Source: Paraburkholderia phenazinium
GTDB taxonomy: Bacteria; Pseudomonadota; Gammaproteobacteria; Burkholderiales; Burkholderiaceae
DNA length: 64,000 nucleotides
NCBI RefSeq assembly: GCF_900142845.1
Contig: NZ_FSRU01000001.1
Span: 2,480,001-2,544,000, forward strand
Reading direction: 5' to 3'
Within the stretch, counting starts at the first letter, position 1. Every line of letters starts with the position of its first letter. The notes under the pieces were generated by a model. It was not told the origin of the DNA. It was given only the letters and a program-made list of their open reading frames with translations, and did no database searches. The position numbers were made by a program, and so were the translations under genes. Below are positions 46,338 to 62,513 of the stretch, one piece after another.

Positions 46338-46382
46338 TCGATGCTCACGGCTCGCCACCCGAGGCGGCGGCCAGGGCTAGCG

Positions 46383-46712
46383 TCAATGACTGATCATCCA
46401 CGGCCTGCCCGCGGGATTGGTTTTTAGGCCGCCGGCTGTCGTCGAGCCAGAGGTCGCCTTCGCCCCACAACCGCAACCGGGTCCATGACGGTGCTGGTAC
46501 TGGCCCGAGCGCTGCGGCGCATGCGCCGCGCGCTCGTTGACCTGGTGAGCGGTGCGGGTAGTCGCCTGCATCAGCGACAAGGCCGGCAGGCTAAGGGTGC
46601 GCGGCGCCTCGCTGCCGCAGGTGGGGCACGTGCAGACCGTATCGCGGTCCGCAACGCGGCGCAGCGCCGCAAATGGGCCGCAGTGGTCGCAGCGGTAATC
46701 GTAAGTCGGCAT
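46383..46712 (-). CDS. fmdB: FmdB-family zinc ribbon protein
   Basis: A 109-residue protein starting MPTYDYRCDHCG with a second pair CPTCG, the zinc ribbon typical of FmdB. The C-terminal half is hydrophilic with a His/Gly/Cys stretch (HRHGPGCGCG). FmdB was first noted as a possible regulator beside formamidase in Methylophilus. Here it follows fmdA by 108 bases as the last gene of the amide operon. Its molecular role is not settled. Confidence 0.88.
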   Translation of the reverse strand: MPTYDYRCDHCGPFAALRRVADRDTVCTCPTCGSEAPRTLSLPALSLMQATTRTAHQVNERAAHAPQRSGQYQHRHGPGCGCGAKATSGSTTAGGLKTNPAGRPWMISH

Positions 46713-46750
46713 GGTGTTGTCCTCTCAGGTGCGCTGAATCGATGTGCCGC

Positions 46751-46785
46751 GCCGGAGTCCGTTCGCGAGGCAAACGCACTCCGGC
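46751..46785 (-). repeat. Inverted repeat between fmdA and fmdB
   Basis: GCCGGAGT (46751-46758) pairs with ACTCCGGC (46778-46785) around a 19-base loop. There is no T tract downstream on the minus strand. It may lower fmdB expression relative to fmdA. Confidence 0.35.
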
Positions 46786-46820
46786 TGCTACGCCTCAGAC
46801 CCTCTCAAACTCTCAAACCC

Positions 46821-48056
46821 TCAAACCCGATCCGGCGACAACGGCAAATCCACCCCGCCGGCCGCAATATGCCTGACCGGCCCGGCCGCCGTGGGCCGGA
46901 TATCGAAGTCGAAGATCTGGGTTGGCAACCACAAGGTCGCGCAGGCATTCGGCACGTCCACCACACCGCTGATATGCCCTTGCACCGGCGCGGTCCCCAG
47001 AATCGAATAGGCCTGCGCCCGCGAGTAGCCGAACTTCGTCAGATATTCGATCGCGTTCAGACAGGCTTGCCGGTAGGCGATGTGCACGTCGAGATAGTGC
47101 TGCTTGCCCTGCTCGTCCACCGAGATGCCTTCGAAGATCAGGTAGTCGTTGTAGTTCGGCGTAATCGGACTCGGTTTGAAAATCGGGTTCCTGATGCCGT
47201 ATTTGGCCATGCCGCCTTTGATCAGCTCGACCTTCATATGCACCCAGCCGGCCATCTCGATGGCGCCGCAGAAGGTGATTTCGCCGTCGCCCTGGCTGAA
47301 GTGCAGGTCACCCACCGACAACCCCGCGCCGTCGACGTACACCGGGAAATACACCTTCGAACCGCGCGACAGGTCCTTGATGTCGCAGTTGCCGCCGTGC
47401 TCGCGCGGCGGCACCGTGCGGGCGCCCTCGGCAGCGGCCCTGGCATGCGCGTCGCCGCTCAGCCGCCCCATATGCGCAGTCGAAGCGAACGGCGGATTGG
47501 CGAGGCCGGGCACGCGCTGCGGATCGGTGGCGATGAGGGCCGCTTCGCGCTCGTTCCACGTCGCGAGCATGGCCGGGTCAGGCAGGCAGCCGATCAGTCC
47601 CGGATGGATCAGGCCGGCAAAGTTGACGCCCGGAATGTGGCGCGAACTGGTGTACAGGCCATGAAAATCCCAGATCGATTTCTGCGCGAGCGGGAAATGA
47701 TCGGTCAGGAAGCCGCCGCCGTTTTTCTTCGAGAAGAAGCCGTTGAAGCCCCACTGACTCTCCTGCTTCGCGCCGATGTCGAGCAGATCGACCACCAGCA
47801 GGTCGCCCGGCTCCGCGCCCTTCACGCCCACCGGGCCGCTCAGGAAGTGCACGATCGACAGGTCGATGTCGCGCACGTCGTCGGCACTGTCGTTGTTCTT
47901 GATGAAGCCGCCGGTCCAGTCGTAGGTCTCGAGGATGAAGTCGTCGCCCGGATTGACCCAGCAGGCCATCGGAATGTCCGGATGCCAGCGGTTGTGGATG
48001 TTCTCGTTTTCGTAGGCCGACTGGTTCAGGTCGACCTTGATCAGCGTTTCAGCCAT
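46821..48056 (-). CDS. fmdA: Formamidase (acetamidase/formamidase family)
   Basis: A 411-residue amidohydrolase that splits formamide to formate and ammonia. The whole length matches FmdA: WHPDIPMACWVNPGDDFILE, GAEPGDLLVVDLLDIG, IPGVNFAGLIHPGLIGC, PPREHGGNCDIK. It lies directly after urtE (36 bases), so uptake of the amide by the Urt-type transporter and its hydrolysis are encoded together. Related amidases also act on acetamide; formamide is the best guess. Confidence 0.94.
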   Translation of the reverse strand: MAETLIKVDLNQSAYENENIHNRWHPDIPMACWVNPGDDFILETYDWTGGFIKNNDSADDVRDIDLSIVHFLSGPVGVKGAEPGDLLVVDLLDIGAKQESQWGFNGFFSKKNGGGFLTDHFPLAQKSIWDFHGLYTSSRHIPGVNFAGLIHPGLIGCLPDPAMLATWNEREAALIATDPQRVPGLANPPFASTAHMGRLSGDAHARAAAEGARTVPPREHGGNCDIKDLSRGSKVYFPVYVDGAGLSVGDLHFSQGDGEITFCGAIEMAGWVHMKVELIKGGMAKYGIRNPIFKPSPITPNYNDYLIFEGISVDEQGKQHYLDVHIAYRQACLNAIEYLTKFGYSRAQAYSILGTAPVQGHISGVVDVPNACATLWLPTQIFDFDIRPTAAGPVRHIAAGGVDLPLSPDRV

Positions 48057-48092
48057 TGCACACTCTCCTGTTGGAAATGACGGACGGTCGGC

Positions 48093-48782
48093 TTACACCG
48101 ACAGGTACTCGCGGATCTTCGCGGTGTCGGCGGCGCTGCGCGGACTCTCGTGCACCAGACGGCCGCCTTCGATGACGAACAGCCGGTCGGCCACATCGAG
48201 CGCGAAACTCAGCACCTGCTCCGAGACGACGATCGTGATGTCGCGCAGCTTGCGGATCTCGTTCAGCGCTTTGGCGATGTCCTTGATGATCGATGGCTGG
48301 ATGCCTTCGGTCGGCTCGTCGAGCAGCAGCACCTTCGGTTCGGTGACAAGCGCACGGGCAATCGCAAGCTGTTGCTGCTGGCCGCCGGACAGGTTGCCGC
48401 CCTTGCGGGCGCGCATTTCGTAGAGCACCGGAAAGAGCGCGTAGATCTCCTCGGGCACGCGCTTGTCGCGTGCGTTCTCGAGGCCGGTCTGGATGTTTTC
48501 CTCCACCGTGAGCGTGGCGAAAATCTGCCGGCCTTGCGGCACGTAGGCGATGCCTTTGGCAACGCGCCGGAAACTCTCGTCGCGCGACACATCCTCGCCG
48601 TCCACGCGCACCGCGCCGCCTTTGAGCGGCAAGATGCCGATCAGCGACTTGAACAGCGTGGTCTTGCCCATGCCGTTGCGCCCCATGATCGCCACGGTTT
48701 CGTTTCTGGCCGCCTGGAAGCTGATTCCATGCAGCGCCTCGCTCTGGCCATAACTGACGAATACGTCGTCGACATTCAACAT
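48093..48782 (-). CDS. urtE: Urea/amide ABC transporter ATPase UrtE
   Basis: A 229-residue ATPase. The Walker A reads GRNGMGKTTL, the Met variant typical of UrtE, with signature LSGGQQQQLAIARAL and Walker B VLLLDEPTEGIQPSI. ATG 48782 has AACGAGGAG upstream; the frame extends further without support. It pairs with UrtD under the permeases UrtB and UrtC. Confidence 0.92.
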   Translation of the reverse strand: MLNVDDVFVSYGQSEALHGISFQAARNETVAIMGRNGMGKTTLFKSLIGILPLKGGAVRVDGEDVSRDESFRRVAKGIAYVPQGRQIFATLTVEENIQTGLENARDKRVPEEIYALFPVLYEMRARKGGNLSGGQQQQLAIARALVTEPKVLLLDEPTEGIQPSIIKDIAKALNEIRKLRDITIVVSEQVLSFALDVADRLFVIEGGRLVHESPRSAADTAKIREYLSV

Positions 48783-48840
48783 GCTGGGCTCCTCGTTCGC
48801 GGGTTCCGCAACCCATTCAATGGCGGGTGAACTGGCCAAC

Positions 48841-49584
48841 TCAGTGGCCCAGATAGACATCGATCACCCGCGGATCCGCTTGCACCTGCTCCATCGCCCC
48901 TTCGGCGAGAATCTTTCCCTGGTGCATCACGGTGACCTTGTGAGCGATCTGCTCGACGAACGCCATGTCGTGTTCGATCACGATCATCGAGCGGTTCCGG
49001 CAGATCCGTTTGAGCAACTCGGCGGTCACCTCGCGCTCGCGCACGCTCATGCCGGCAATCGGTTCGTCGAGCATCAACAGCTCCGGCTCCTGCATCAGCA
49101 ACATGCCGATCTCGAGCCACTGCTTCTGCCCGTGCGAGAGCAGGCCGGCTTCGAGGTCGAGCTGGCCGGCGAGACCAATCTCGCCGGCCACGCTGCGCAC
49201 GCGGTCGAGCACGTCGCTGGTGCGGCGAAACGCCAGGGCGCCGAACACACCGCGCCCGCGCGGAAACGACACCTCCAGGTTCTGGAACACGGAGAGGTTT
49301 TCGTAGATCGACGGCGTCTGAAACTTGCGGCCAATCCCTTTGCGCACGCGGCGAAATTCCGGCAGCCGCGTCATCTCCTCGTTGCGGAACTTGATGCTGC
49401 CTTCGCTCGCCCGCGTCTTGCCGCAGATCAGATCGAGCAGCGTCGTCTTGCCCGCGCCGTTCGGGCCGATCACCACGCGCAGTTCACCACGGTCCACATA
49501 CAGGTTCAGCGAATCGATGGCCTTGAAGCCGTCGAACGAGACGCTCAGCCCTTCCACGGCCAGGACGAAATCGGTATTGCTCAT
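48841..49584 (-). CDS. urtD: Urea/amide ABC transporter ATPase UrtD
   Basis: A 247-residue ATPase with Walker A GPNGAGKTTLLDLICGKT, a LSHGQKQWLEIGMLL signature (His variant usual in UrtD) and Walker B LLMLDEPIAGM. ATG 49584 overlaps the urtC stop by four bases (ATGA). The long open frame upstream of it is the shadow of urtC. Confidence 0.92.
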   Translation of the reverse strand: MSNTDFVLAVEGLSVSFDGFKAIDSLNLYVDRGELRVVIGPNGAGKTTLLDLICGKTRASEGSIKFRNEEMTRLPEFRRVRKGIGRKFQTPSIYENLSVFQNLEVSFPRGRGVFGALAFRRTSDVLDRVRSVAGEIGLAGQLDLEAGLLSHGQKQWLEIGMLLMQEPELLMLDEPIAGMSVREREVTAELLKRICRNRSMIVIEHDMAFVEQIAHKVTVMHQGKILAEGAMEQVQADPRVIDVYLGH

Positions 49585-50753
49585 GGTGTGCTCCTCGCGC
49601 CGCGGCGCAGCAGCCACGGTTTCACATGACTGTCGTAGAGACCGGCGAGGCCGTTCGGAAACGCCATCACGACGCCGATAAAGAGCGCGGCCATCAGAAA
49701 CAGCCACAGGTTCGGGAAACTTTCGGAGAACCACGTCTTGCCCAGGTTGACGAGCACCGCGCCATAGACCGCGCCCACCAGCGACATGCGTCCGCCCACC
49801 GCCGCGTAGATCACCATCTCGATGGACGGCACGATCCCCACGAACGACGGCGACATGAAGCCGACCTGCAACGTGAACATCGCGCCGCCGATAGCGGCCA
49901 GCACGGCGGCGACGCAAAACGCGAAAACCTTGAACATGGCGACGTCGTAGCCCGAGAAGCGCACCCGGTCTTCCTTGTCGCGCATGGCGAGCAACAAGGT
50001 GCCAAGCTTGCTGCGCTGGATGCGCCGGCAGCAGAGGATCGCCACCAGCAGCAGGACCGCGTTGGCGAAGTACAGGACCAGCTTGGCGCCGTCGCCGCGA
50101 ATGTCCCAGCCGAGCAGCGTGCGCAGGTCGGTGATGCCGTTCACGCCGCCGGTATAGCCTTGCTGGCCGATGATGAGCACCGACAGGATCAGCGCCACCG
50201 CCTGGGTGATGATCGCGAAGTAAACGCCGCCCACGCGCCGCTTGAACATCGCAAAGCTGACCACGAAGGCCAGCGCGCAGGGCACCACCACCACCGCGGC
50301 GAGCGCGAACGGCAGCGAATGAAACGGCTTCCACCAGAACGGCAGCGCAGTGAGCTGATTCCAGTCCATGAAGTCAGGAATGCCAGGCGTCGACTGGATC
50401 TTCGTGCTGATCGGGTCCGACGCTTCGAGCTTCAGGAACATCGCCATGCAGTAACCGCCGAGGCCGAAGAACACGCCCTGCCCCAGGCTCAGCACGCCGC
50501 CGTAGCCCCACGCCATCACGAGGCCGACGGCGACAAACGCATAGGTCAGATACTTGCCCATCAGGTTGAGGCGGAACGCATCGAGCGCGAGCGGAAACAC
50601 CACCAGAATCAGCAGCGCCAGCACGACGATGCTGCCGTAGCCGTCGCTCGTCAGCCAGCGCAGCAGCGCGGGCCGCAGGCCGCCGCGAACGGCCTCGCCA
50701 TCGGTCTTGGGTGGCGCAGCAGCCGCGCCGGCGGAAGGGTTCAGCGGATCCAT
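49581..50753 (-). CDS. urtC: Urea/amide ABC transporter permease UrtC
   Basis: A 390-residue permease of the LivM/UrtC type with about ten membrane segments (VVLALLILVVFPLALDAF, AWGYGGVLSLGQGVFFGLGGY). GYGGVLSLGQ is the conserved loop that meets the ATPases. The N-terminal 30 residues are Ala/Pro-rich. It follows urtB by 96 bases and overlaps urtD by four. Confidence 0.93.
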   Translation of the reverse strand: MDPLNPSAGAAAAPPKTDGEAVRGGLRPALLRWLTSDGYGSIVVLALLILVVFPLALDAFRLNLMGKYLTYAFVAVGLVMAWGYGGVLSLGQGVFFGLGGYCMAMFLKLEASDPISTKIQSTPGIPDFMDWNQLTALPFWWKPFHSLPFALAAVVVVPCALAFVVSFAMFKRRVGGVYFAIITQAVALILSVLIIGQQGYTGGVNGITDLRTLLGWDIRGDGAKLVLYFANAVLLLVAILCCRRIQRSKLGTLLLAMRDKEDRVRFSGYDVAMFKVFAFCVAAVLAAIGGAMFTLQVGFMSPSFVGIVPSIEMVIYAAVGGRMSLVGAVYGAVLVNLGKTWFSESFPNLWLFLMAALFIGVVMAFPNGLAGLYDSHVKPWLLRRGARSTP

Positions 50754-50849
50754 ACGCGTTTCTCCGGGCTGAATCGATTAAAAGGACGGCTTGACGGCGC
50801 CGTCGAAAGACGGGGCTGCCGGACGCGCAAGCGGCCGTTGTCTGGAGCG

Positions 50850-51767
50850 TCAGGCACGGCGCACCTTCGAAGCGAAGAGACCTTGCGGCCGCAGCATCAG
50901 CACGATGACGATGGTGAGCAGCGTCACCACGCGCGCCGACGATCCGGTCATGAAGAACTCGCTGATCGACTGCATCTGGGCAATGCCGAATGCCGAGGCC
51001 ACCGTGCCGAGCAGGCTCGCCGCGCCGCCGAACGTCACCACCAGAAACGAATCGACGATATAGAGCGAACCGCTGGTCGGCCCCGTCGAGCCGATCGCGG
51101 TAAATGCCGCCCCGGCCACGCCCGCCATCCCGCAGCCGATGGCGAAAGTCAAGCGGTCGGTCTTGCGCGTGTCGATGCCGGCCGCGTTCGCCATCTGCCG
51201 GTTTGCGACGGTGGCGCGTACCCGCAGTCCCCAGCGCGAGCGGTACAGCGCCAGCAGCACGCCACCCGTCATCAACACCGCGAGGCTCATCACGAACAGG
51301 CCGTTGATCGGGATGTCGAGGCCCGGCTTCGGCGACCACGAACCCATCAGCCAGTCCGGCAGCGTCGGGCTGACCTCCTTCGGGCCGAACACCGAGCGGA
51401 ACACCTGCTGCATGCCGAGGCTCAGGCCCCAGGTCGCGAGCAGCGTGTCGAGCGGACGCCGGTACAGATGGCGGATCAACGCCCACTCCGCCACCCAGCC
51501 CGCCGCAAAGGCCAGCGCGAAAGCGGCGCAGATTGCCAGCGGAAAGTAGATCGGCGCGAACCCGTGCCAGTAGTTGTCGGCCACTTGCGAGAACATGTAG
51601 ATCGTGTACGCCCCGATCGTCATGAACTCGCCGTGGGCCATGTTGATGACGCCCATCTGGCCGAAAATCACCGCCAGCCCGAGCCCCATCAGCAGCAGCA
51701 CGCTGAACAGGCTCAAGCCGGCGAAGCCCTGCATCAGCGTGATGTTAAGAATGTCCGAAGCCGACAT
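50850..51767 (-). CDS. urtB: Urea/amide ABC transporter permease UrtB (short form)
   Basis: A 305-residue LivH/UrtB permease with the loop GQMGVINMAHGEFMTIGAY and about eight membrane segments. Many urea-type UrtB proteins are over 500 residues because of a periplasmic N-terminal extension; that extension is absent here. The short form resembles amide transporters found beside formamidase. The ATG at 51767 has GAGGAGAGACGC upstream. It follows urtA by 55 bases. Confidence 0.92.
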   Translation of the reverse strand: MSASDILNITLMQGFAGLSLFSVLLLMGLGLAVIFGQMGVINMAHGEFMTIGAYTIYMFSQVADNYWHGFAPIYFPLAICAAFALAFAAGWVAEWALIRHLYRRPLDTLLATWGLSLGMQQVFRSVFGPKEVSPTLPDWLMGSWSPKPGLDIPINGLFVMSLAVLMTGGVLLALYRSRWGLRVRATVANRQMANAAGIDTRKTDRLTFAIGCGMAGVAGAAFTAIGSTGPTSGSLYIVDSFLVVTFGGAASLLGTVASAFGIAQMQSISEFFMTGSSARVVTLLTIVIVLMLRPQGLFASKVRRA

Positions 51768-51822
51768 GCGTCTCTCCTCGAAATGACCGGCGCGCCGCTG
51801 TGGCGCGCCACGGATACCCGGC

Positions 51823-53088
51823 TTACTGGTAACCCTTGGGGAACGGATTCGGCTCGATCAGATTCGGCGACTCGGCCACCACCTTGAACTGGCCGTCCGC
51901 CTGCGCCTCGCCGATGCGCGTGCGGCTCCACAAGTGGTGATTCGCATGGATCTTCACGTAGCCTTCGGGCGCGGTCTTCAATTCGATGCCCGGCGACGCC
52001 GCCACGACCTTGTCCACGTCGAAGCTGCCGGCCTTCTCCACCGCCGCTTTCCACAACCATGGCCCGAGATACGCCGCCTGCGTGACGTCGCCGATCACCG
52101 ACCTGGGTCCGTACTTCGCCTTGAACGCCGCGACGAATTTCTTGTTGTTGTCGTTGTCGAGCGATTCGAAGTACTTCATGGCCGAGTAGAAGCCCGCCAC
52201 GTTTTCGCCGCCGATGCCCAGCACCTCGTCCTCGGTCACCGAGATGGTCAGCAGGAACTGCTTGTCCGCTGTGATGCCGGCCGCCTTGAGCTGCTTGTAG
52301 AACGCCACATTCGAACCGCCGACGATGATCGCGTAGATGCAATCGGGTTTGGCGATCTTGATCTTGTTGATGAGCGAGTTGAAGTTGGTGGTGCCGAGCG
52401 GGTAATACTCTTCGCCGACCACCTTGCAACCGGTCAGATGCTGTTCGATATGCTTGCGCGCAATCTTGCTCGAGGTGCGCGGCCAGATGTAATCGGAGCC
52501 GATCAGGAAGAAGCTCTTGGCGTTCTTCGTCTGGTTGGCCCAGTTCAACCCCCACAGAATCTGCTGGGTCGCTTCCTGGCCGGTATAGAACACGTTCTTC
52601 GATTGCTCGAGTCCTTCGTAGAACGTCGGGTAGTACAACAGGCCGTTGTCGCGTTCGAAGATCGGCAGCACTGCCTTGCGCGAGGCCGAGGTCCAGCAGC
52701 CGAACACGGCGGCCACGTGATCGTTCTCGAGCAGCTTCTTCGACTTTTCGGCGAACGTCGGCCAGTCGGAAGCGCCGTCTTCCTGAATGATCTTGATCTG
52801 GCGGCCGAGAATCCCGCCTGCCGCATTGATCTGCTCGATCGCGAGGCGCTCCGCCTGAATCGAGCCGGTTTCGGAGATCGCCATCGTGCCGGTCGCCGAG
52901 TGCAACTGGCCGACCGTCACTTCGGTGTCGGTCACGGCAAGGTGCGTGGTGTTGACCTTCGCGGTCGGAAACTGCTGGGCCCGTGCGATGCCGGACATGG
53001 CCAGGGCGGGCGCGGCAGCGAGACCCATCAGGAGTTTGCGCCGGAGCGCCGAAGGCATGCCTTGCTCGTTCTGATCGTCGTGTGACAT
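51823..53088 (-). CDS. urtA: Urea/short-amide ABC transporter binding protein UrtA
   Basis: A 421-residue periplasmic binding protein of the UrtA/AmiC-like type, with VTVGQLHSATGTMAISETGSI near the mature start and YYPTFYEGLEQSKNVFYTG, which are UrtA hallmarks. The signal peptide has paired Arg (ALRRKLLMGLAAAPALAMSGIARA), so export may be by Tat. ATG 53088 has CCAAGGAG upstream. It is the first gene of the urtABCDE-fmdAB operon. Ligand choice between urea and formamide cannot be read from sequence; fmdA next door favours short amides. Confidence 0.93.
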   Translation of the reverse strand: MSHDDQNEQGMPSALRRKLLMGLAAAPALAMSGIARAQQFPTAKVNTTHLAVTDTEVTVGQLHSATGTMAISETGSIQAERLAIEQINAAGGILGRQIKIIQEDGASDWPTFAEKSKKLLENDHVAAVFGCWTSASRKAVLPIFERDNGLLYYPTFYEGLEQSKNVFYTGQEATQQILWGLNWANQTKNAKSFFLIGSDYIWPRTSSKIARKHIEQHLTGCKVVGEEYYPLGTTNFNSLINKIKIAKPDCIYAIIVGGSNVAFYKQLKAAGITADKQFLLTISVTEDEVLGIGGENVAGFYSAMKYFESLDNDNNKKFVAAFKAKYGPRSVIGDVTQAAYLGPWLWKAAVEKAGSFDVDKVVAASPGIELKTAPEGYVKIHANHHLWSRTRIGEAQADGQFKVVAESPNLIEPNPFPKGYQ

Positions 53089-53192
53089 CGAATTCTCCTT
53101 GGTCGTGGTCGGGCGACCCGCGCCGGCATTCCAGGTAACCGGCTGGCGGGATCGACGCCACGAAAGGTAGGTAGCCAATTTGCGCAGCCAAA

Positions 53193-53208
53193 TACGTCAC
53201 TTGACGTA
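53193..53208. promoter_or_regulatory. Perfect dyad TACGTCA-CT-TGACGTA, candidate operator
   Basis: TACGTCA (53193-53199) and TGACGTA (53202-53208) are exact inverted repeats with a 2-bp centre, 105 bases upstream of the urtA ATG. A 16-bp symmetric site in the shared promoter region suits a dimeric LuxR-type regulator such as the one encoded at 56880. Binding is inference. Confidence 0.55.
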
Positions 53209-53231
53209 GGGCGCGGCGAAATTGCGCTTTT

Positions 53232-53237
53232 TATAAT
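53232..53237 (+). promoter_or_regulatory. TATAAT -10 element upstream of the sensor kinase
   Basis: An exact TATAAT lies 186 bases before the kinase ATG at 53423. No good -35 hexamer stands at 16-18 bases (TTGACG inside the dyad is 25 bases away), which suggests an activator-dependent promoter. Confidence 0.4.
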
Positions 53238-53320
53238 CGCGCCGACACAGCCCCCACAGCGCACCCACAGCGCCTCGACTCATGCCGCTGCGCGCTCGCC
53301 GGCCGCCCTTCGCACGTGAA

Positions 53321-53353
53321 CGGCAAAGGCCGGGCAAAGGCCAGGCAAAGGCC
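53321..53353. repeat. Three 11-bp tandem repeats in the sensor-kinase leader
   Basis: The unit (C/G/A)GGCAAAGGCC occurs three times in a row at 53321-53331, 53332-53342 and 53343-53353; only the first base varies. It lies 70-100 bases before the chosen kinase start. Confidence 0.7.
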
Positions 53354-53422
53354 GGGCCGCGAGTGGAATGCAATTTGCATGGCCGCACGGCTAGCCCCCG
53401 AACCGGTCGACGAAAGGCCCCG

Positions 53423-56400
53423 ATGCACCAAACGGAACCACAGACCCCGCGCTCCACCGGCCCGGCCACCCAAGCTGGGGCATCGCGCCCACCGGCCGGC
53501 GGTACCCAGCGCATCGTCAAGATTCGCCGCGACTACAACGCGTGGGTGGGCGACGAAACGCTCGAGGACTACGCGCTGCGCTTCACGCCGCGCACGTTCC
53601 GGCGCTGGTCCGAATTCCGCGTCGCCAACACGGCGATGGGCGCGGTGTCGTTCCTCGTGCTGGAGGCGATCGGCGGCGCGCTGGTGGTCAACTACGGGTT
53701 CACCAATGCGGTCTACGCGATCCTCGCCGTCTCGGTCCTGATCTTTTTGACCGGCATCCCGATCAGCTACTACGCGGCACGCTTCGGCGTCGACATGGAC
53801 CTGCTCACGCGCGGCGCGGGCTTCGGCTATATGGGCTCGACGCTGACCTCGCTGATCTACGCGATCTTCACCTTCGTGTTCTTCGCGCTCGAAGCGGCCA
53901 TCATGTCGCTCGCGCTGGAGCTGTATCTGAAGATCCCGCTATCGGTCGCCTACATCATCAGCGCGCTGGTGATCATTCCCGTGGTCACTTTCGGCATCAC
54001 CTTCATCAATCGCCTGCAGGGCTGGACCCAGCCGTTGTGGCTCGTGCTGCTAGTCGTGCCGTACGCCGTGGTGCTGTGGCGCGAGCCGCACGTGCTGGCT
54101 GAGTGGGTCACCTTCGGCGGCCTGTCGGGCGATGGCCACGAGTTCAACCTGGTCGCCTTCGGAGCCGGCTGCACGGTGGTGTTTTCGCTGATCGTGCAGA
54201 TCGGCGAACAGGTCGACTACCTGCGTTTCCTGCCGCCGCGCACGCACGCCAACCGGATTCGCTGGTGGGTCGCGCTGATCTCGGCGGGCCCCGGCTGGAT
54301 CGTGCCGGGTGCGATGAAGATGCTCGGCGGCGCGTTCCTCGCCTTCCTCGCGATCCAGCACGAGATCGATCCGGTCAAGGCCGTCGAGCCGACCCAGATG
54401 TATCTGGTGGCCTATCACTACGTATTCCGCTCGCCCGAAGGCGCGCTCGCCGCGATGACGCTGTTCGTGATCGTGTCGCAGTTGAAGATCAACGTCACCA
54501 ACGCGTACGCCGGCTCGCTCGCGTGGTCGAATTTCTTCGCGCGGCTCACGCACAGCCACCCGGGCCGCGTGGTCTGGCTCGTGTTCAACGTGCTGATCGC
54601 ACTGCTGCTGGTCGAAATGGGCGTGTTTGAGGCCATCAGCAAAGTGCTCGCGCTGTATGCGAATGTGGCGATTGCCTGGATCGGCGCGGTGGTCGGCGAC
54701 CTCGTGATCAACAAGCCGCTCGGCTATAGCCCGCGCTATGTGGAATTCAAGCGGGCGCATCTTTACGATGTCAATCCCGTTGGCGTGGGCGCCATGCTGA
54801 TCGCCTCGGCGATCGCCGGACTCTCCCATGCGGGTCTGTTCGGCGCGAGCGCCGAAGCGCTGTCGTCGTTTATCGCGCTGCTGGTGGCGTTTGTCTGTGC
54901 GCCCTTGCTCGCCATCGCCACGCGTGGGCGGTTCTATCTGGCCCGCGACGGTCACGACCTCGAACACGGCGCGGTGTTGCGCTGCGTGATCTGCGAAAAC
55001 ACCTTCGAGCGCGAAGACATGGCGCACTGTCCGGCCTACGCCGGTTCGATCTGCTCGCTGTGCTGCTCGCTCGACTCGCGCTGCAACGACTCCTGCAAGC
55101 CGCACGCGCGGCTGCCCGCCCAGTTCGGCCAGTCGATGCGTACGCTGTTTCCGCGCCTCAAACTGGGGCCGGCCGGTCTGCGGCTCGCGCAGTACGCCGG
55201 TCTGCTGATCGTCGTGCTGGCGCTGCTCGGCGGCGTGCTGGCCGCACAGTGGTACCAGAGCGTGCGGACCCTGCCCGAGCTCGACACCACGGTTCACGAC
55301 GTGCTGCTGCAGGGCTATCTGAAGGCGTTTTTTGCGCTGGCGCTGGTGGGCTGCATCGCCGCCTGGTGGCTGGTGCTCGCCAATGAAAACCGCAAGGTCA
55401 CCCAGGAAGAATCGCAGCGGCAGGCGGAGTTGCTGATGCAGGAAATCGAGGCCCACCGCAAGACCGACGCGGCACTCCAGGCCGCGAGCGCCGCCGCCGA
55501 ATCCGCGAACCGTGCGAAGAGCCGCTATGTGACGGGCCTGAGCCATGAACTACGCACGCCGCTCAACAGTATCCTCGGCTACGCTCAACTACTGCTGCAG
55601 GGCACCGACGAACTGCCGCCGGCCCGGCGCAATGCCGTGGCGACCATCTATCGCAGCGGCGAACATCTGCTGGCGCTTGTCGACGGGCTGCTCGACGTGG
55701 CCCGCATCGAGGCGGGCAAACTGCAGTTGAACGTGACGGAGAATTCACTGCCGGAGTTCGTCGCGCAGTTGTCTGCGATGCTCGAACCGCAGGCCACGGA
55801 CAAGGGACTGCAGTTCGATTTCCAGACCAGCGGCCGCATCCCGGACGTGGTGCGCATCGACGAAAAGCGGGTCCGGCAGATTCTCATCAACCTGATCGGC
55901 AACGCAATCCGCTTCACCTCGCGCGGCTCGGTCAAGGTGCGCGCCGGTTATGCCTGGGAGACCGTCACGTTTGAGATCGCCGACACCGGTCCCGGCATCC
56001 CGGCCGCGGAACTGGAGCGCCTGTTCCTGCCATTCGAGCGGGGCGCCGCCGCGCGCGAGCACGACCATGGCGCCGGACTCGGCCTGACGATCTGCCGTCT
56101 GCTGACGGAACTGATGGGCGGCAATCTGGAGGTGCAGAGCGAGGTCGGCAAAGGCACGCGCTTTATCGTCAAGCTGTTCGCTCCCGAGGTGCGTGCGCCG
56201 CAGGTGCTGGCGAGCAGCCCGCGTCATCTGAAGGGCTATAGCGGCGCGCGCCGCACCGTGCTGGTGGTGGACGATCTCGCGGAGCAGCGGCGCATCGTCA
56301 CGCAGACGCTCGCTCCGCTTGGCTTCACGGTGATCGAAGCCGCCAGCGGACCGGAGGCGCTGCAATGGCTCGGCACCGCCGCGGCCGATCTCATCGTGAT

Positions 56401-56887
56401 GGACGTTTCCATGCCGGCCATGGACGGCTTCGAGGCGAGCCGGCTGATTCGCGACAACCAGTTGTCGGGCGCGCCGATCCTGATCCTCTCGGCCAACGCC
56501 TTCGCCGACGATCGCGACAAAGGCGCTGCGGCCGGTTGCGACGACTATCTGGCCAAACCGCTGCATATCCCACTGCTGCTCGACAAAATGGCGGCCCTGT
56601 TGCAACTGCACTGGATTGCCGAGACTATCGACCCGGCGCCCCCCGCAACCGGCGCCCCCTTGAGCGACGTGCCCGCAAAGCTGCCCGCCAGCTTGAAAGA
56701 GAAATTGCACGCCCAACTGGAAATGGGCTACGTGCAAGGCTTCATCGAACAACTGGACGCCGCCGAACACGGCGCGCCCGAACTCGCTACGCTGCTCGAA
56801 CCGCTGCGTAGCCTCGCGAGCCGTTTCCGGCTGACTGAACTCGCGCAATTGCTCGCGCCTACCCAGCAGGTCAATCCCGATGCATGA
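53423..56887 (+). CDS. NCS1-type permease fused to histidine kinase and receiver domain
   Basis: A 1154-residue membrane sensor. Residues about 30-500 are an NCS1 (cytosine/purine/uracil-type) transporter with about 12 membrane helices (VANTAMGAVSFLVLEAIGGALVV, QIGEQVDYLRFLPP). A Cys-rich segment follows, with Cys521, 524, 536, 544, 547, 548, 554 and 558, possibly a metal site. Then come two more helices, a short coiled region, a kinase domain with His708 in SHELRTP, an ATP-binding domain (NLIGNAIRF, DTGPGIP, GAGLGLTICR) and a receiver with Asp994 in IVMDVSMPAMDG. I chose ATG 53423 (AAAGG upstream). It is divergent from urtABCDE-fmdAB, so a urea, amide or nucleobase-like compound may be the signal. 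Confidence 0.92.
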   Translation: MHQTEPQTPRSTGPATQAGASRPPAGGTQRIVKIRRDYNAWVGDETLEDYALRFTPRTFRRWSEFRVANTAMGAVSFLVLEAIGGALVVNYGFTNAVYAILAVSVLIFLTGIPISYYAARFGVDMDLLTRGAGFGYMGSTLTSLIYAIFTFVFFALEAAIMSLALELYLKIPLSVAYIISALVIIPVVTFGITFINRLQGWTQPLWLVLLVVPYAVVLWREPHVLAEWVTFGGLSGDGHEFNLVAFGAGCTVVFSLIVQIGEQVDYLRFLPPRTHANRIRWWVALISAGPGWIVPGAMKMLGGAFLAFLAIQHEIDPVKAVEPTQMYLVAYHYVFRSPEGALAAMTLFVIVSQLKINVTNAYAGSLAWSNFFARLTHSHPGRVVWLVFNVLIALLLVEMGVFEAISKVLALYANVAIAWIGAVVGDLVINKPLGYSPRYVEFKRAHLYDVNPVGVGAMLIASAIAGLSHAGLFGASAEALSSFIALLVAFVCAPLLAIATRGRFYLARDGHDLEHGAVLRCVICENTFEREDMAHCPAYAGSICSLCCSLDSRCNDSCKPHARLPAQFGQSMRTLFPRLKLGPAGLRLAQYAGLLIVVLALLGGVLAAQWYQSVRTLPELDTTVHDVLLQGYLKAFFALALVGCIAAWWLVLANENRKVTQEESQRQAELLMQEIEAHRKTDAALQAASAAAESANRAKSRYVTGLSHELRTPLNSILGYAQLLLQGTDELPPARRNAVATIYRSGEHLLALVDGLLDVARIEAGKLQLNVTENSLPEFVAQLSAMLEPQATDKGLQFDFQTSGRIPDVVRIDEKRVRQILINLIGNAIRFTSRGSVKVRAGYAWETVTFEIADTGPGIPAAELERLFLPFERGAAAREHDHGAGLGLTICRLLTELMGGNLEVQSEVGKGTRFIVKLFAPEVRAPQVLASSPRHLKGYSGARRTVLVVDDLAEQRRIVTQTLAPLGFTVIEAASGPEALQWLGTAAADLIVMDVSMPAMDGFEASRLIRDNQLSGAPILILSANAFADDRDKGAAAGCDDYLAKPLHIPLLLDKMAALLQLHWIAETIDPAPPATGAPLSDVPAKLPASLKEKLHAQLEMGYVQGFIEQLDAAEHGAPELATLLEPLRSLASRFRLTELAQLLAPTQQVNPDA

Positions 56888-57965
56888 CGAATCCCTGCTT
56901 CTGCCTCCCGAGACACAACCGGAGTTGCCCGACGGCAAGCCGGTGGTGCTGATCGTCGACGATACGCCGGATAATCTCGCGCTGCTGTCGGACACGCTGC
57001 AGGCGGCCGGCTACGCCGTGCTGGTTGCGCTCGACGGACAATCCGCGCTGCAGCGTCTCGCGCGCATCACGCCCGACGCCGTGCTGCTCGACGCGCTGAT
57101 GCCGGGTATGGACGGCTTCGAAACCTGCCTGCATATCAAGGCCGATCCGCGCAATCGCCATCTGCCGGTCATCTTCATGACCGCGTTGACGGACAGCGAG
57201 CATGTCGTACAAGGCTTCCGGGTGGGCGGCATCGACTATGTGACGAAGCCGGTGAAACCGAACGAGGTCAGCGCGCGCATTGCCGCGCACGTGCAGCGTT
57301 CGCGCCTGCAGCGCCAGGCCGACATGGTGCTCGAGATCGGCATGCGCGCCGCCCTCATCGCCGCGGCGAGCGGCGAGATCCAATGGCAGAGCGACCTCGC
57401 CCGCCAACGGCTCGCGCGCTACGCGGCGGGCGATGCGCATGGCGTGGCGAACGCGGACCGTGCGGACCGTGCGGATGATATGGATGGTGTAGGCGGTGTG
57501 GACGGTGCGATTGGCGCGCGCGGCGTGACGGGCGACACCCCTTGCTTGCCGGGTCCGCCGAGCGATTCCGGCTCACGCCTGCCGGCCGTGCTGGCTCAGT
57601 GGCTCACGCGCTGGATCGAAGCCGGCTGCGATCTGCAAACCGCGTTCGAGACGGCTGCGGGCGGCGTGCGCCGGGTCGCGCGCGTGCTGGGCCGTGCCAC
57701 GCGCGGCGACTGGGTGATCCTGCTGGAAGAGTTCGACGATGCCGCGCATACCACGGCGCTCGCGGCGCAATTCGGCCTGACGGCGCGCGAAGCGGAAGTC
57801 CTGCTGTGGCTATCGCGCGGCAAAACCAACCGCGATATCGGCGATATCCTGGGGATGGCGCCGCGCACCGTCAACAAGCACCTGGAACATGTGTTCGGCA
57901 AGCTGCATGTCGAGACGCGCGCGGCGGCCGCCGCCATCGCAGCAAAGGCGAGTACGCGGTACTGA
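56880..57965 (+). CDS. LuxR-type response regulator, partner of the permease-kinase
   Basis: A 361-residue regulator. The receiver (about 20-140) has the phospho-acceptor Asp71 in LLDALMPGMDG and Lys in YVTKPVKP. A middle linker follows with a low-complexity Asp/Gly/Ala repeat (near 195-225, ADRADRADDMDG). The C-terminal LuxR helix-turn-helix (about 300-355) reads LTAREAEVLLWLSRGKTNRDIG. The gene starts inside the last codons of the kinase gene (8-base overlap), so the two are made together. The divergent urt-fmd promoter is the likely target. Confidence 0.9.
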   Translation: MHDESLLLPPETQPELPDGKPVVLIVDDTPDNLALLSDTLQAAGYAVLVALDGQSALQRLARITPDAVLLDALMPGMDGFETCLHIKADPRNRHLPVIFMTALTDSEHVVQGFRVGGIDYVTKPVKPNEVSARIAAHVQRSRLQRQADMVLEIGMRAALIAAASGEIQWQSDLARQRLARYAAGDAHGVANADRADRADDMDGVGGVDGAIGARGVTGDTPCLPGPPSDSGSRLPAVLAQWLTRWIEAGCDLQTAFETAAGGVRRVARVLGRATRGDWVILLEEFDDAAHTTALAAQFGLTAREAEVLLWLSRGKTNRDIGDILGMAPRTVNKHLEHVFGKLHVETRAAAAAIAAKASTRY

Positions 57966-57994
57966 AGGGACTCGCTCTCTGCAAGCCGCCTGGC

Positions 57995-59476
<1,482 letters not shown>

Positions 59477-59610
59477 AGCGCGATGTCACCGTCGTAAAAG
59501 GCGTCGCGAAAGGCAACGCGAAAGGGCAAAAATGCCGTTGCCGACATTTTCTGACAAACGCCTATGGTGCAACGTTTTCGGATTGTTTGCACGCCGCACG
59601 CGGCCGACGG

Positions 59611-59625
59611 TGTAGAAAAACTACA
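59611..59625. promoter_or_regulatory. HexR-like palindrome upstream of zwf
   Basis: TGTAGAAAAACTACA is a perfect 5-5-5 palindrome. It matches the HexR operator consensus I recall from gammaproteobacteria (TGTARTWWWAYTACA) at all positions but one. It lies in the 152-base gap between the reductase gene and zwf, 135 bases before the zwf ATG. HexR (RpiR family) controls zwf in several proteobacteria. No hexR gene lies in the window. Confidence 0.55.
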
Positions 59626-59628
59626 GGT

Positions 59629-60576
59629 TCAGGCGCGTTGCAATGCCGCACGCGCGACCCGGCACGCGCCCAGATCCCACGCCGCGCAACCGACGCTCTT
59701 GAATAGCACGGGCGTGCTGGCCGCAAGCAGTGGCGCACGTCCCTCCAGCACCGTGGCGATGCCGGTGACGCCCGTCCAGTCCACGCCCGCCTGGATGAAA
59801 TCGCCGGCTTCGTGTTGCGCGCCGGCCAGATCGTCGACGTAGAGCGCGCTGCCGTGCACGGTGCGCGCGCCGATTTCCAGCATGGCCGGCGTGAACGCCC
59901 CGACGCCGATCACCAGCCGCTCCGCGCGCGGCGCTTCGTCGTAGACCGCCTGCTTGCTGGTGGTGAGGGCGATCACGACATCGACCGCATCCGGCACCTG
60001 GGCGCTAGCGAGCGGCCGCAGGTTGCGCGCCTTGTCGCGCTGCGCGGCGCAAAACGCTTCGGCCTTCGCCGGCGCGCTGCCCTTGACCCATACGACGGCA
60101 TCAGGGAACAGTTCGCCGATCGCCTCGGCATGGTTCGCCGCCTGCGTGCCGGTGCCGATCAGCAGAAACTCGCGCGCGGCCGGCCGGCCGGACGCGCCGC
60201 CTTTGAAGGTCTGCACGCCGAGCATCGACATCGCGGCGGTGCGCCGGCCGGTGACGGTCGGGCCGTCGAGGATGAACAGCGTCTCGCCGGTGTCCGCGTC
60301 GAACGCCATGACCTTGCCGTGGATCGTGGGCAGGCCGCGCGGACCGTTGGACGGACAGACGTTGACCAGCTTGTGGATGCCGAGGTCCGGCGCGGTGGCC
60401 GGCATCGACAGCATGATGCCGCCTTCGTTGAGCGGCACGACGAGGCGCTCCGGGCTCAGGATGCGCTGCTGGGCGTAATCGACGGACGCCGTTTTCAGGG
60501 CCTCCACGAGCGCCGCATAGGGTGTGAGCCGCGCGCTGGCGGCGGCGTCGAACATCTGCGTGGCCGGGTGTGTCAT
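59629..60576 (-). CDS. Delta-1-pyrroline-2-carboxylate reductase (ornithine cyclodeaminase family)
   Basis: A 315-residue protein of the ornithine cyclodeaminase/mu-crystallin family, with IHKLVNVCPSNGPRGLPTIHG, DGPTVTGRRTAAMSMLG and a nucleotide-binding LLIGTGTQAANHAEAI. Next to a trans-3-hydroxy-L-proline dehydratase gene, this family member is best read as the NAD(P)H-dependent enzyme that reduces delta-1-pyrroline-2-carboxylate to L-proline. Ornithine cyclodeaminase activity is the alternative but is less likely here. It follows the dehydratase gene by 30 bases. Confidence 0.85.
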   Translation of the reverse strand: MTHPATQMFDAAASARLTPYAALVEALKTASVDYAQQRILSPERLVVPLNEGGIMLSMPATAPDLGIHKLVNVCPSNGPRGLPTIHGKVMAFDADTGETLFILDGPTVTGRRTAAMSMLGVQTFKGGASGRPAAREFLLIGTGTQAANHAEAIGELFPDAVVWVKGSAPAKAEAFCAAQRDKARNLRPLASAQVPDAVDVVIALTTSKQAVYDEAPRAERLVIGVGAFTPAMLEIGARTVHGSALYVDDLAGAQHEAGDFIQAGVDWTGVTGIATVLEGRAPLLAASTPVLFKSVGCAAWDLGACRVARAALQRA

Positions 60577-60606
60577 AAGCGGGTTTTCTCCATCGGCGTG
60601 CGCCGC

Positions 60607-61614
60607 CTAGCGCACGAGAAAGCCATACGTTAGCGGATCGCGTTCGTCGACAATCCAGTTCGCGAAGCCGCAGATATGCGCATCGCCCGCGATTTCGGGA
60701 ATCACCGCATCGAAGCGCTCGAGCTTCGTCTCGGACAGCACCCGGCCGCGAAAAATCGTGCCGATCACCGATTCGTTGACGAGCGTCTCGTCGCGTCCCA
60801 GCTCGCCGCGCAGATACAGTTGCGCGACCCGTCCCGCGGTGCCCGAGCCGGTCGGCGAACGGTCCACCTCGCGATCGGCGAACACGCAGCAATTGGCCTG
60901 CGTCGAGCCTGGGTGACGCGGCGCGTTATCGATGATCGTGCCGTAAATATGGTTGATTTCGGGGATGTGCGGATGGACCACCTTGAACGCTTCATTGGCC
61001 GCGCGCTTCACTTCGGCGCCGAACTGGATCAGGCGATCCACCTCCGCTTCGCGCACGTTCAGATCGAACGGCTTGCCGGACGTGTAGAAATAAAACGCGC
61101 CGCCGAAGACGATATCGCCCTTCACCTCGCCGAAGCTCGGCGTGCTCACCGTGACGTCGCGCTGCCAGATGAACGAAGGCACGTTGACGAAGCGCACGCT
61201 GCCTACGTGATCGCCGTCCCACTTGACGAAGGCTTCGATGAAGCCGCACGGCGCGTCGATACCCACGCGCGTCTCCGGCTCGGTGCGCTCGACCCAGCCC
61301 AGCGACACGGCAGCGGTGGCGAGCGCGATCACGCCGTGGCCGCAATGGTCGCTGTAGCCTTCGTTGTGCACGAAGATGATGCCGAAGTCGGCGCCTTCGC
61401 TGACCGGCTCGGTCAGGTAGCCGCCGTACATGTCCGCATGGCCGCGCGGTTCGAGCATCAGCGCGCGGCGCAGGTGATCCTGATGTTCCTTGAGCCACGT
61501 GCGGCGCTCGACGATGGTCTTGCCTTGAAACTTCGGCAGCCCGCTCGTGACGAGCCGGAACGACTCGCCGCCGGTGTGCACTTCAACCGTGCTGATGACG
61601 CGATTCAATTTCAT
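60607..61614 (-). CDS. Trans-3-hydroxy-L-proline dehydratase (proline racemase family)
   Basis: A 335-residue proline-racemase-fold enzyme. Racemases and 4-hydroxyproline epimerases use two catalytic Cys. Here the first is Cys91 (DHCGHG) but the second position is Thr255 (SPTGSGT). That Cys/Thr pair is the mark of trans-3-hydroxy-L-proline dehydratase, which removes water to give delta-1-pyrroline-2-carboxylate. The next gene encodes the matching reductase. ATG 61614 gives the usual family start (MKLNRVISTVEVHTGGE). The divergent GntR gene is its likely regulator. Confidence 0.9.
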   Translation of the reverse strand: MKLNRVISTVEVHTGGESFRLVTSGLPKFQGKTIVERRTWLKEHQDHLRRALMLEPRGHADMYGGYLTEPVSEGADFGIIFVHNEGYSDHCGHGVIALATAAVSLGWVERTEPETRVGIDAPCGFIEAFVKWDGDHVGSVRFVNVPSFIWQRDVTVSTPSFGEVKGDIVFGGAFYFYTSGKPFDLNVREAEVDRLIQFGAEVKRAANEAFKVVHPHIPEINHIYGTIIDNAPRHPGSTQANCCVFADREVDRSPTGSGTAGRVAQLYLRGELGRDETLVNESVIGTIFRGRVLSETKLERFDAVIPEIAGDAHICGFANWIVDERDPLTYGFLVR

Positions 61615-61701
61615 GATGCGTGGCCACCCTCTTCCGCTTGCGGCCCGCCGGCCGAAAATACCTTCCTGCACCGCATTCCGAAGTCTCCATCCTGTTCTAT
61701 A

Positions 61702-61722
61702 CTGGATCAAAATGTAGACCAG
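61702..61722. promoter_or_regulatory. Candidate GntR-type operator
   Basis: CTGGATC (61702-61708) and GACCAG (61717-61722) form an imperfect inverted repeat in the 182-base gap between the divergent dehydratase and GntR genes. A further TTGGATCAG at 61777-61785 repeats the left arm. The gap is AT-richer than its surroundings. Confidence 0.35.
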
Positions 61723-61796
61723 CTTTGGTTTCACATCAACCAATTTCAAAATTATTGCGGCAATCTGGTTCGAATTTGGATCAGCCCGCCCTCGCT

Positions 61797-62513
61797 ATGG
61801 AAAGCACCTTTCGCCCCAAGCAGATTTACGAGCAGGTCTCCGAACGCATCCGCACCGAGATCCGCAGCGGGCAGTTCGCAGCGGATTCGCGTCTGCCCTC
61901 GGAGCGTGAATTGGCCGCGCGTTTTGGCGTGGGCCGCCCGGCGGTGCGCGAGGCGATCGGCGCGCTGCAGAACGAAGGGCTCGTAATCACGCGCCGCAAC
62001 TCGGGTACTTATGTCTGCGCGGATGCCTTGCAGCGTCTCGCGGCGGCGCCGCTGCAACCGGCGTCGTTGGCCGATCCCGACTTCAGCCCGACCTCGACGC
62101 TCGACGTGCGCCTGATCCTCGAACCGGCCATCGCCCGGCGCGCGGCGGCGCACGGCCAGCGCGACGAACTGGCGGAGCACTATCTCGCGCAGATGGATTC
62201 GATCGTCGACTTGACCGACCCCGAGCAGCGGGTGCTATGGAACAACAGCGACCGCCTGTTTCACCGGCAACTGGCGGTGATGAGCGGCGACGCGTTGCTG
62301 GTGAAGATCGCCGACGAAGTGGCGAAGACCATGGACCAGCCGCTCTGGAAGCGGCTCAAGGACGACGGCATTTACGATACCGGCCGGATTCGCCTCTACG
62401 TGTCCGAGCACCGGCTGATCTACGAGGCAATCGTAGGCGGCGACGCGGATGCGGCGGCGTTCTACGTCGAGCAGCACATCATGCGCGTGCGGCGCGACAT
62501 CGCGCCGAAGTGA
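61797..62513 (+). CDS. FadR/GntR-family transcriptional regulator
   Basis: A 238-residue GntR regulator. The N-terminal winged helix has LPSERELAARFGVGRPAVREAIGALQNEGL; the C-terminal FCD domain carries likely metal-binding residues (DVRLILEPAIARRAA, HRQLAVMSGD, EHRLIYEAI). I start at ATG 61797 (MESTFRPKQIYEQV), which is the usual family start; the frame is open further upstream. It is divergent from the trans-3-hydroxyproline genes and probably controls them. Its inducer is unknown. Confidence 0.9.
   Translation: MESTFRPKQIYEQVSERIRTEIRSGQFAADSRLPSERELAARFGVGRPAVREAIGALQNEGLVITRRNSGTYVCADALQRLAAAPLQPASLADPDFSPTSTLDVRLILEPAIARRAAAHGQRDELAEHYLAQMDSIVDLTDPEQRVLWNNSDRLFHRQLAVMSGDALLVKIADEVAKTMDQPLWKRLKDDGIYDTGRIRLYVSEHRLIYEAIVGGDADAAAFYVEQHIMRVRRDIAPK

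Follow-up and report, generated by a model that had tools for sequence, protein, structure and literature searches.

What would a histidine kinase that begins with a permease fold sense, and which genes would it control? The question is raised by a locus of Paraburkholderia phenazinium that we analysed within a stretch of 64,000 nucleotides (the window; RefSeq assembly GCF_900142845.1, contig NZ_FSRU01000001.1, positions 2,480,001 to 2,544,000). There, a single open reading frame at 53423..56887 on the plus strand joins a permease fold, an eight-cysteine module, two helices, a kinase core and a receiver. This gene (the sensor gene) and the gene for a LuxR-type regulator that follows it are divergent from urtABCDE-fmdAB. 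On the evidence of sequence comparison, fold prediction and gene neighbourhoods, the sensor is probably a kinase that serves as a receptor for urea, short-chain amides or both and relays its signal by way of the regulator to a palindrome in front of urtA.

A permease fold and a hybrid kinase in one chain

The sensor frame extends 53282/53423..56887, and the protein has 1154 amino acids when counted from the ATG at 53423. Pfam places HisKA at residues 698-765, HATPase_c at 813-918 and Response_reg at 946-1055, all on one chain, as in a hybrid histidine kinase. By direct count, H708 lies within HELRTPLN and D994 within VMDVSMP, so that a first-pass annotation of this DNA, made from the sequence alone, had correctly placed a His708 kinase core and an Asp994 receiver in the same protein. 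The partner that it had named was likewise confirmed: the product of 56880-57965 carries Response_reg and GerE domains (Pfam), as a LuxR/NarL-type response regulator does, and the two genes share eight bases, ATGCATGA, at 56880-56887.

The same annotation had called the N-terminal part a nearly complete NCS1 permease, which held by fold and failed by Pfam. Residues 1-679 matched no Pfam family at E ≤ 10, PF02133, the model of the NCS1 family (TC 2.A.39), included; there are six PF02133 matches in the same genome, none of them the sensor, and the best NCBIfam match, cytosine permease, was weak (24 bits against a cut-off of 326). An AlphaFold2 model built from an alignment of 63 homologues (A1) had a mean predicted local distance difference test score (pLDDT) of 87.6 and a predicted template modelling score (pTM) of 0.87. 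The top five Foldseek matches to it in the PDB were Mhp1 (three entries) and CodB (two chains), with E values of 6e-10 to 4e-8 and TM scores of 0.69-0.79 on the target; other families came at 9e-7 or worse, and SSS/SLC5 structures ranked lower than NCS1. With hhalign, the sensor aligned to Mhp1 and NCS1-type permeases from the fetched loci at 99.5% over 361 columns, Mhp1 being reached via a PF02133 permease of the same genus. Phmmer and profile searches of the PDB matched no NCS1 chain, either with the sensor or with a more distant permease, L171. Because the fold and profile matches are there and the Pfam match is absent, the permease part is, as modelled, a divergent NCS1-related branch and not a Pfam member.

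Between transporter and kinase there was no Pfam match; STAC was not seen, the Pfam holding of a STAC model being unchecked, and the sensor had no Pfam SSS match and no predicted separate periplasmic domain. The two extra membrane helices of the first-pass annotation appear in the model as a helix at 583-616 and a long helix from 622, which continues into the signalling helix.

Sensor genes stand beside urea and amide genes

Homologues were gathered by genome scans. The permease part had a match at E ≤ 1e-20 in 52 of 398 sampled genomes of the phylum, and the matches listed were in frames of at least 894 amino acids, save one permease of 552 amino acids (L171). Among 59 genomes, the window's own and those of relatives, 12 had a match, which was strong in 10. 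The hosts among the best 80 of 586 relatives include Paraburkholderia, Burkholderia, Pandoraea, Pseudomonas, Stutzerimonas, Bordetella and Methyloversatilis; plasmid hosts include Sinorhizobium, Azospirillum and Klebsiella. Relatives of the permease part (E ≤ 1e-40) were present in 524 of 72,556 plasmid records, 342 of them from Klebsiella, and 306 of the 524 were called conjugative. On one Klebsiella plasmid (L340, NZ_CP097412.1), the kinase gene is divergent from urtABCDE and an amidase-like gene annotated as formamidase, with a one-mismatch copy of the palindrome.

We compared 138 loci longer than 4.5 kb, 79 from the best 80 of 586 relatives and 39 plus 20 picked by hand from other scans. 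L241 overlaps L019, and L237 and L238 are near-copies from one assembly. Two further loci, L362 and L365, have no annotation and were left out of the analysis. UrtA-E, FmdA, AmiE, UreC, UreG, UreE, UreD and AmiS/UreI were named by family models. We assigned UreA, UreF and AmiB ourselves: no NCBIfam model matched UreF, and AmiB resembles Clp ATPases with a score below cut-off. Of the 138 loci, 135 contain one or more of these genes (urtA, fmdA, amiE, AmiS/UreI or a urease gene); the exceptions are L083, L173 (a 4.8-kb contig) and L240. The suggestion of a conserved NCS1-kinase-receiver order tied to urea and amide genes was thus borne out by the tabulation of homologues' neighbours, a check set beforehand.

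A urtA at least 60% identical to that of the window was found in 107 loci, 3 of which also have urease, and a urtA of 35-59% identity in 10, five with urease. Eight loci have urease only and eight have fmdA with AmiS/UreI, while L019 has fmdA and amiE, and L241 has amiE. In all, the urt importer is encoded in 117/138 loci and urease in 16/138. For the 77 labelled tips of the sensor tree we defined three types, F (urtA ≥60% or fmdA), U (urtA 35-59% and/or urease) and I (fmdA with AmiS/UreI), and counted six changes between them, against a mean of 19.6 and a minimum of 17 in 500 shuffles. The gene-set type thus tracks the sensor tree, and by our reading of the tree U would have arisen about five times.

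Open reading frame clustering of 90 stretches gave 11 neighbour clusters with at least 20 members, which held urt, fmd, ami, FmdB and regulator genes; the smaller clusters were mostly unannotated. These counts bear on the idea that what the module detects is one of the classical NCS1 ligands (allantoin, hydantoin, uracil or cytosine) and that the urea and amide genes serve the downstream catabolism of that ligand. That Mhp1 and CodB are the nearest solved relatives and that other relatives are annotated as allantoin or cytosine permeases would fit such a ligand; we nevertheless consider it improbable, since the sensor is not recognized by the PF02133 model and the 11 largest clusters consist of the genes just named, nucleobase-pathway genes not having been searched for by name.

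Some loci depart from the common layout. In a type-I sub-branch (L160, L172, L228-L231, L233 and L234), kinase frames of about 890-995 amino acids stand beside fmdA and an AmiS/UreI channel, and the L160 kinase has no Pfam receiver. L083 is a Thiotrichaceae homologue of 988 amino acids, also with no Pfam receiver, that stands beside other regulators and has none of the reference urea/amide genes in 16.6 kb. L339 has a co-directional run, fmdA-fmdB-urtABCDE-ureD-ureA-ureC, in which the formamidase-linked importer is joined with urease.

The predicted pocket is invariant

The hhalign alignment places Mhp1 N318, Q121 and W117 at sensor positions N360, E157 and F153, and the Na2-site residues of Mhp1, A309, S312 and T313, at S352, K355 and I356. 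E157, Q259, E262, Q263, D265, K355, N357 and N360 are invariant in 79/79 non-redundant sensors, whatever their neighbours, as would be expected if all sensors had one ligand class. A loose search for residues common to the U-type clades and rare in F-type sensors returned 10 positions, no key pocket residue among them. We favour urea or a short-chain amide as the ligand because it is common to the urease-, formamidase- and amidase-linked copies, in which the pocket is unchanged. The step would be small, since an amide or ureido group is also part of NCS1 ligands, hydantoin and allantoin among them. The lysine at the Na2 position suggests, by analogy with ApcT, that the sensor is Na+-independent.

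Stand-alone permeases share the predicted pocket

The branch also includes permeases with no kinase. Urease, formamidase or amidase genes lie within about 9 kb of 8 of the 11 stand-alone copies examined. In Klebsiella (L345:8995-10602), a permease annotated as cytosine permease, which may be a urea importer, lies directly after ureG in a urease operon. Two Acinetobacter plasmids, probably near-copies, have a stand-alone permease before ureEFGJ-ureDABC, Moraxella and Tsukamurella have one beside fmdA, and Arthrobacter U41 has one before amiE. The Klebsiella copy is 45% identical to the sensor and matches PF02133 at 37.7 bits (cut-off 23.5), a model that six other stand-alone relatives fail. When the Klebsiella permease was used as the query against the 398 genomes (E ≤ 1e-100), the matches listed were all kinase-length frames, which makes stand-alone copies rare among these genomes. 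The more distant L171 permease stands beside a CN-hydrolase, a binding protein and an AmiR-type regulator.

In three loci (L019, L342 and Methylovirgula plasmid pHY1), a stand-alone permease stands beside the sensor, and there are no urt genes. L019, from Burkholderia sp. WAC0059, encodes a permease of 598 amino acids that is 51% identical to the sensor and has all eight cysteines and no kinase; a perfect copy of the palindrome lies between this gene and amiE, and the best urtA match in the genome is 37%. In L342 (Acinetobacter), a 3-mismatch site lies between the kinase gene and a divergent gene for a copy of 538 amino acids; the sensor is the only partner of this copy there, with no urea/amide gene beside it, and no urtA match was found in the 378,590-base record. 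Plasmid pHY1 has fmdB-fmdA, kinase-regulator, permease and amidase genes, with no urt annotated in 19.5 kb. As an aside, the L342 record (CAKLQF020000001.1) is labelled Acinetobacter phage MD-2021a; the part examined contains catalase, amino-acid transport and sensor-kinase genes, and the record looks like a bacterial chromosome, not a phage.

All nine stand-alone copies that we aligned carry the sensor pocket residues. They are set apart in transmembrane helix 1 (TM1) and at position 363: stand-alone copies have Y77, D80, F/Q81 and S363 (9/9), whereas sensors have F77, L/M/I at 80, E81 and A363 (79/79). Position 195, which had separated 13 sensors from the stand-alone copies, was dropped as a marker since 4/79 sensors have L there. 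In a smaller tree the stand-alone copies lay outside the sensors; because the 30-sequence sensor clade had a support of 0.13, a transporter-to-sensor direction is only suggested.

Might the fused module still be a urea/amide importer, with the kinase reading transport turnover and not occupancy? Its pocket residues are identical to those of the stand-alone permeases, its fold is complete and confidently modelled, and CbrA is described as both transporting histidine and signalling (PMC7918813). We regard this as unlikely, though the least unlikely of the alternatives, given the clean TM1 difference at positions 77, 80, 81 and 363 and the urt importer already encoded in 117 of the loci.

A broader proposal that takes in both kinds of protein is made here tentatively, at somewhat less than even confidence. 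In it, a new NCS1-fold branch would handle urea and short-chain amides, its stand-alone members importing them for urease and formamidase operons and its fused members serving as receptors with the same pocket. The TM1 acid would have moved from position 80 to 81, an invariant lysine would replace the Na2 site in both, coupling would run through a zinc-bound eight-cysteine module, and one sensor would control either the unrelated ATP-binding cassette (ABC) importer or its own twin.

The eight-cysteine module

The Cys-rich linker of the first-pass annotation proved to be strictly conserved, its eight cysteines (Table 1) being invariant in the 63 aligned homologues and in 79/79 non-redundant sensors. 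Among the nine stand-alone copies all eight are kept in two, four or five in five, and one in two. That the module is exclusive to kinases (28/28 matches, in 26/200 genomes) was considered and rejected, as stand-alone permeases carry it too. The model of the module has short strands and a helix (mean pLDDT 70), and its best Foldseek matches were mostly zinc fingers (PHD, ZZ, RING and FYVE) at E values of 0.45 or worse. It is probably a coupling piece stabilized by zinc, the metal itself being a guess.

Eight invariant cysteines could also make the protein mainly a metal or redox sensor that uses the permease as a membrane anchor, and urease is a nickel enzyme. This seems very unlikely to us: urease genes are present in 16 of the 138 loci only, permeases that stand alone, with no kinase, can also bear the cysteine tail, complete or eroded, and the pocket of the permease is no less invariant than the cysteines.

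A palindrome as candidate operator

The urtA-kinase gap of the window contains the motif TACGTCA-N2-TGACGTA. At up to 3 mismatches, it is found in 105/115 urtA-kinase gaps, against 1.3% of shuffled gaps; at up to 2, it is found in 49 of 64 non-redundant urtA upstream regions, for which about 300 palindromes with shuffled half-sites gave a mean of 0.05 and a maximum of 2. The sole exact copy in the 8.53-Mb genome is that at urtA. Sites with up to 2 mismatches in this genome were dropped, as there were 9 (10 with the exact copy) against 9 in a reversed-pattern control.

Sixteen chosen genomes contained 19 sites at up to 1 mismatch (control, 6), with one in 14 of the 16, and 16 of the 19 sites adjoin the kinase gene or a urea/amide gene. 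Such sites lie 70 bases 5' of amiE (L334), about 90 bases 5' of fmdA (L336) and before urtA-ureDABC (L338), and G199, a genome outside the 16, has an exact motif before urtA-ureDABC (L337). One site (G001:C1:875507) has no reference gene within 3 kb, another (G413:C14) sits within an unrelated reading frame, and a third (G037:C12:223858) was left out of inspection. Where urtA is kilobases away from the kinase gene (L158, L176, L177 and L193), the motif stands at urtA.

Whether the adjacent LuxR-type protein is the one that binds there is a separate matter. Its link to the palindrome is predicted, and the site could belong to some other protein, such as a general nitrogen regulator. We think this quite unlikely, as the motif has one exact site in its own genome and occurs at up to 2 mismatches in 103/126 loci with a LuxR-type regulator, whereas it is absent from all eight type-I loci, in which no LuxR-type regulator was found downstream (in the two checked, L160 and L172, the kinase gene is accompanied by genes for an OmpR-type regulator and a receiver-kinase). 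An imperfect inverted repeat is moreover reported for CrbR, the LuxR-type partner of another transporter-fused kinase (PMC5715377).

A proposed route from ligand to promoter

In the receptor-kinase reading that we prefer, urea or an amide would bind the divergent NCS1-fold permease module as the input and shift the permease bundle between its inward and outward states. The shift would travel by way of the eight-cysteine module and the final pair of membrane helices into the dimerization helix and would alter autophosphorylation at His708, from which phosphate would pass to the LuxR-type regulator encoded next door. The regulator would then bind the palindrome before urtA and activate uptake and hydrolysis; elsewhere its target may also stand before fmdA, amiE, a stand-alone permease or urtA-ureDABC. 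The module and the stand-alone NCS1 urea/amide permeases would have a common ancestor, and the TM1 changes probably biased the module from transport to sensing.

Several observations weigh against this. Most loci were picked by similarity or by hand, so the counts are not independent; the pocket was mapped by profile alignment at 17% identity, with uncertainty in transmembrane helix 6; and Foldseek found nothing for the cysteine module at E ≤ 0.001. No urea/amide genes were found near the stand-alone copies of Streptomyces and Arthrobacter NicSoilB11. The motif was missing at up to 1 mismatch from 2 of the 16 chosen genomes, and the Methylovirgula twin locus has 3-mismatch sites only. At up to 2 mismatches, it was missing from 12 of 18 U-type loci with a regulator, in the stretch fetched; extending three U-type loci brought in a motif adjacent to urtA in two of them and, in the third, a 2-mismatch site that lies 1.3 kb before fmdA. 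It was also missing from 9 of 106 F-type loci with a regulator, four of which have TACGCA-N4-TGCGTA exactly or nearly; this second palindrome is exact in L156, L169 and L189 and has one change in L157 and L165.

Features of the window

UrtA-E each score above their NCBIfam/TIGR cut-offs, as expected of a Urt urea ABC importer, FmdA exceeds the NF045496 cut-off with 772 bits, and the FmdB-type protein exceeds that of Zn_ribbon_8; all are encoded on the strand opposite to the sensor gene, in agreement with the divergent arrangement originally described. Rfam gave no match at gathering scores in 44000-60000, and a sigma-70-like promoter sought in 53050-53480 was not found.

Table 1. Positions of the sensor locus and its neighbours in the window
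Feature	Position	Strand	Basis
NCS1-type transporter-fused hybrid histidine kinase, 1154 amino acids	53423..56887	+	Open reading frame, Pfam, AlphaFold2, Foldseek
Permease-fold sensor region, residues 30-510	53510..54952	+	AlphaFold2, Foldseek, hhalign
8-cysteine module, residues 518-560 (C521, C524, C536, C544, C547, C548, C554, C558)	54974..55102	+	Alignment
Two further membrane helices, about residues 583-650	55169..55372	+	Model secondary structure; membrane assignment by inspection
HisKA with His708	55514..55717	+	Pfam
HATPase_c	55859..56176	+	Pfam
Receiver domain with Asp994	56258..56587	+	Pfam
Adjacent response regulator, receiver and LuxR/GerE helix-turn-helix	56880..57965	+	Pfam
Predicted operator TACGTCACTTGACGTA, perfect palindrome upstream of urtA	53193..53208	.	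Motif counts across loci
urtA, substrate-binding protein, formamidase-linked type	51823..53088	-	TIGR03407
urtB permease	50850..51767	-	TIGR03409
urtC permease	49581..50753	-	TIGR03408
urtD ATPase	48841..49590	-	TIGR03411
urtE ATPase	48093..48860	-	TIGR03410
fmdA formamidase	46821..48056	-	NF045496
fmdB-type zinc-ribbon protein	46383..46718	-	PF09723

Elsewhere in the window, at 59629-62513, a GntR/FCD regulator gene diverges from genes of the proline-racemase and ornithine-cyclodeaminase types, a set that hints at the use of hydroxyproline. The products of 15761-19678 and 24588-27266, IcmF and a ClpB-like double-AAA ATPase, hint at a type VI secretion cluster, and a sarcosine-oxidase-alpha-type protein and a DAO-family oxidase are encoded at 38878-41877 and 42218-43462.

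Comparison with known systems

The partner of CbrA, CbrB, is of the NtrC type. CbrA, to which the first-pass annotation had likened the sensor, remains a fitting analogue for a possible way of working, with transporter and histidine kinase in one chain. It does not fit in its make-up: CbrA and CrbS are described as carrying an SLC5 domain and a STAC linker (PMC13022988, PMC7918813), and CbrA further differs in its PAS domain, the lack of a receiver and its histidine substrate, while SLC5 is not the best match here. CrbS/CrbR (MxtR/ErdR) has a transporter-like N-terminus, a hybrid kinase with a receiver and a LuxR-type partner at an inverted repeat, and controls the uptake and use of a small nutrient, as is proposed for the sensor (PMC7918813, PMC5715377); it has an SLC5 fold, STAC, PAS and acetate where the sensor has an NCS1 fold, the eight-cysteine module, two extra helices and urea/amide genes. 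The sensor kinase-MFS fusion family (TC 2.A.1.34) also joins a transporter fold to a kinase, the fold being MFS, and its function is listed as unknown (PMC3924187).

The view that an NCS1 kinase paired with amide uptake is little studied fits the literature. Our search of titles, abstract starts and passages of open-access papers found no description of an NCS1-fused kinase or of a bacterial NCS1 urea permease; one paper mentions, at a urtABCDE operon, an adjoining kinase and LuxR-family regulator, which it does not study (PMC13296017). Transporter-fused kinases are known from few systems, and those studied in the literature covered by the search are SLC5. The sensor would be a case of another fold put to similar use, and for it a ligand, a regulator, a DNA site and target genes are predicted.

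Mhp1 and CodB have the sensor's fold, with Mhp1 Asn318 aligned to its invariant N360; the sensor differs in its lack of a Pfam match and in having E157 for Q121 and K355 for S312. UhpC/UhpT and yeast Snf3/Rgt2 resemble the twin loci in that a transporter-like receptor governs a transporter from the same family; UhpC relies on a separate kinase for signalling, and the folds of UhpC and Snf3/Rgt2 differ from that of the sensor. The stand-alone "allantoin/cytosine permeases" are 45-51% identical to the window's sensor (three pairs) and have the same predicted pocket, no kinase, and D80-F/Q81 in TM1 where the sensor has L80-E81. The findings also suggest that some "allantoin/cytosine" permeases in urease operons are urea importers, and natural transporter/sensor pairs with the same pocket could show how a transporter is converted into a receptor.

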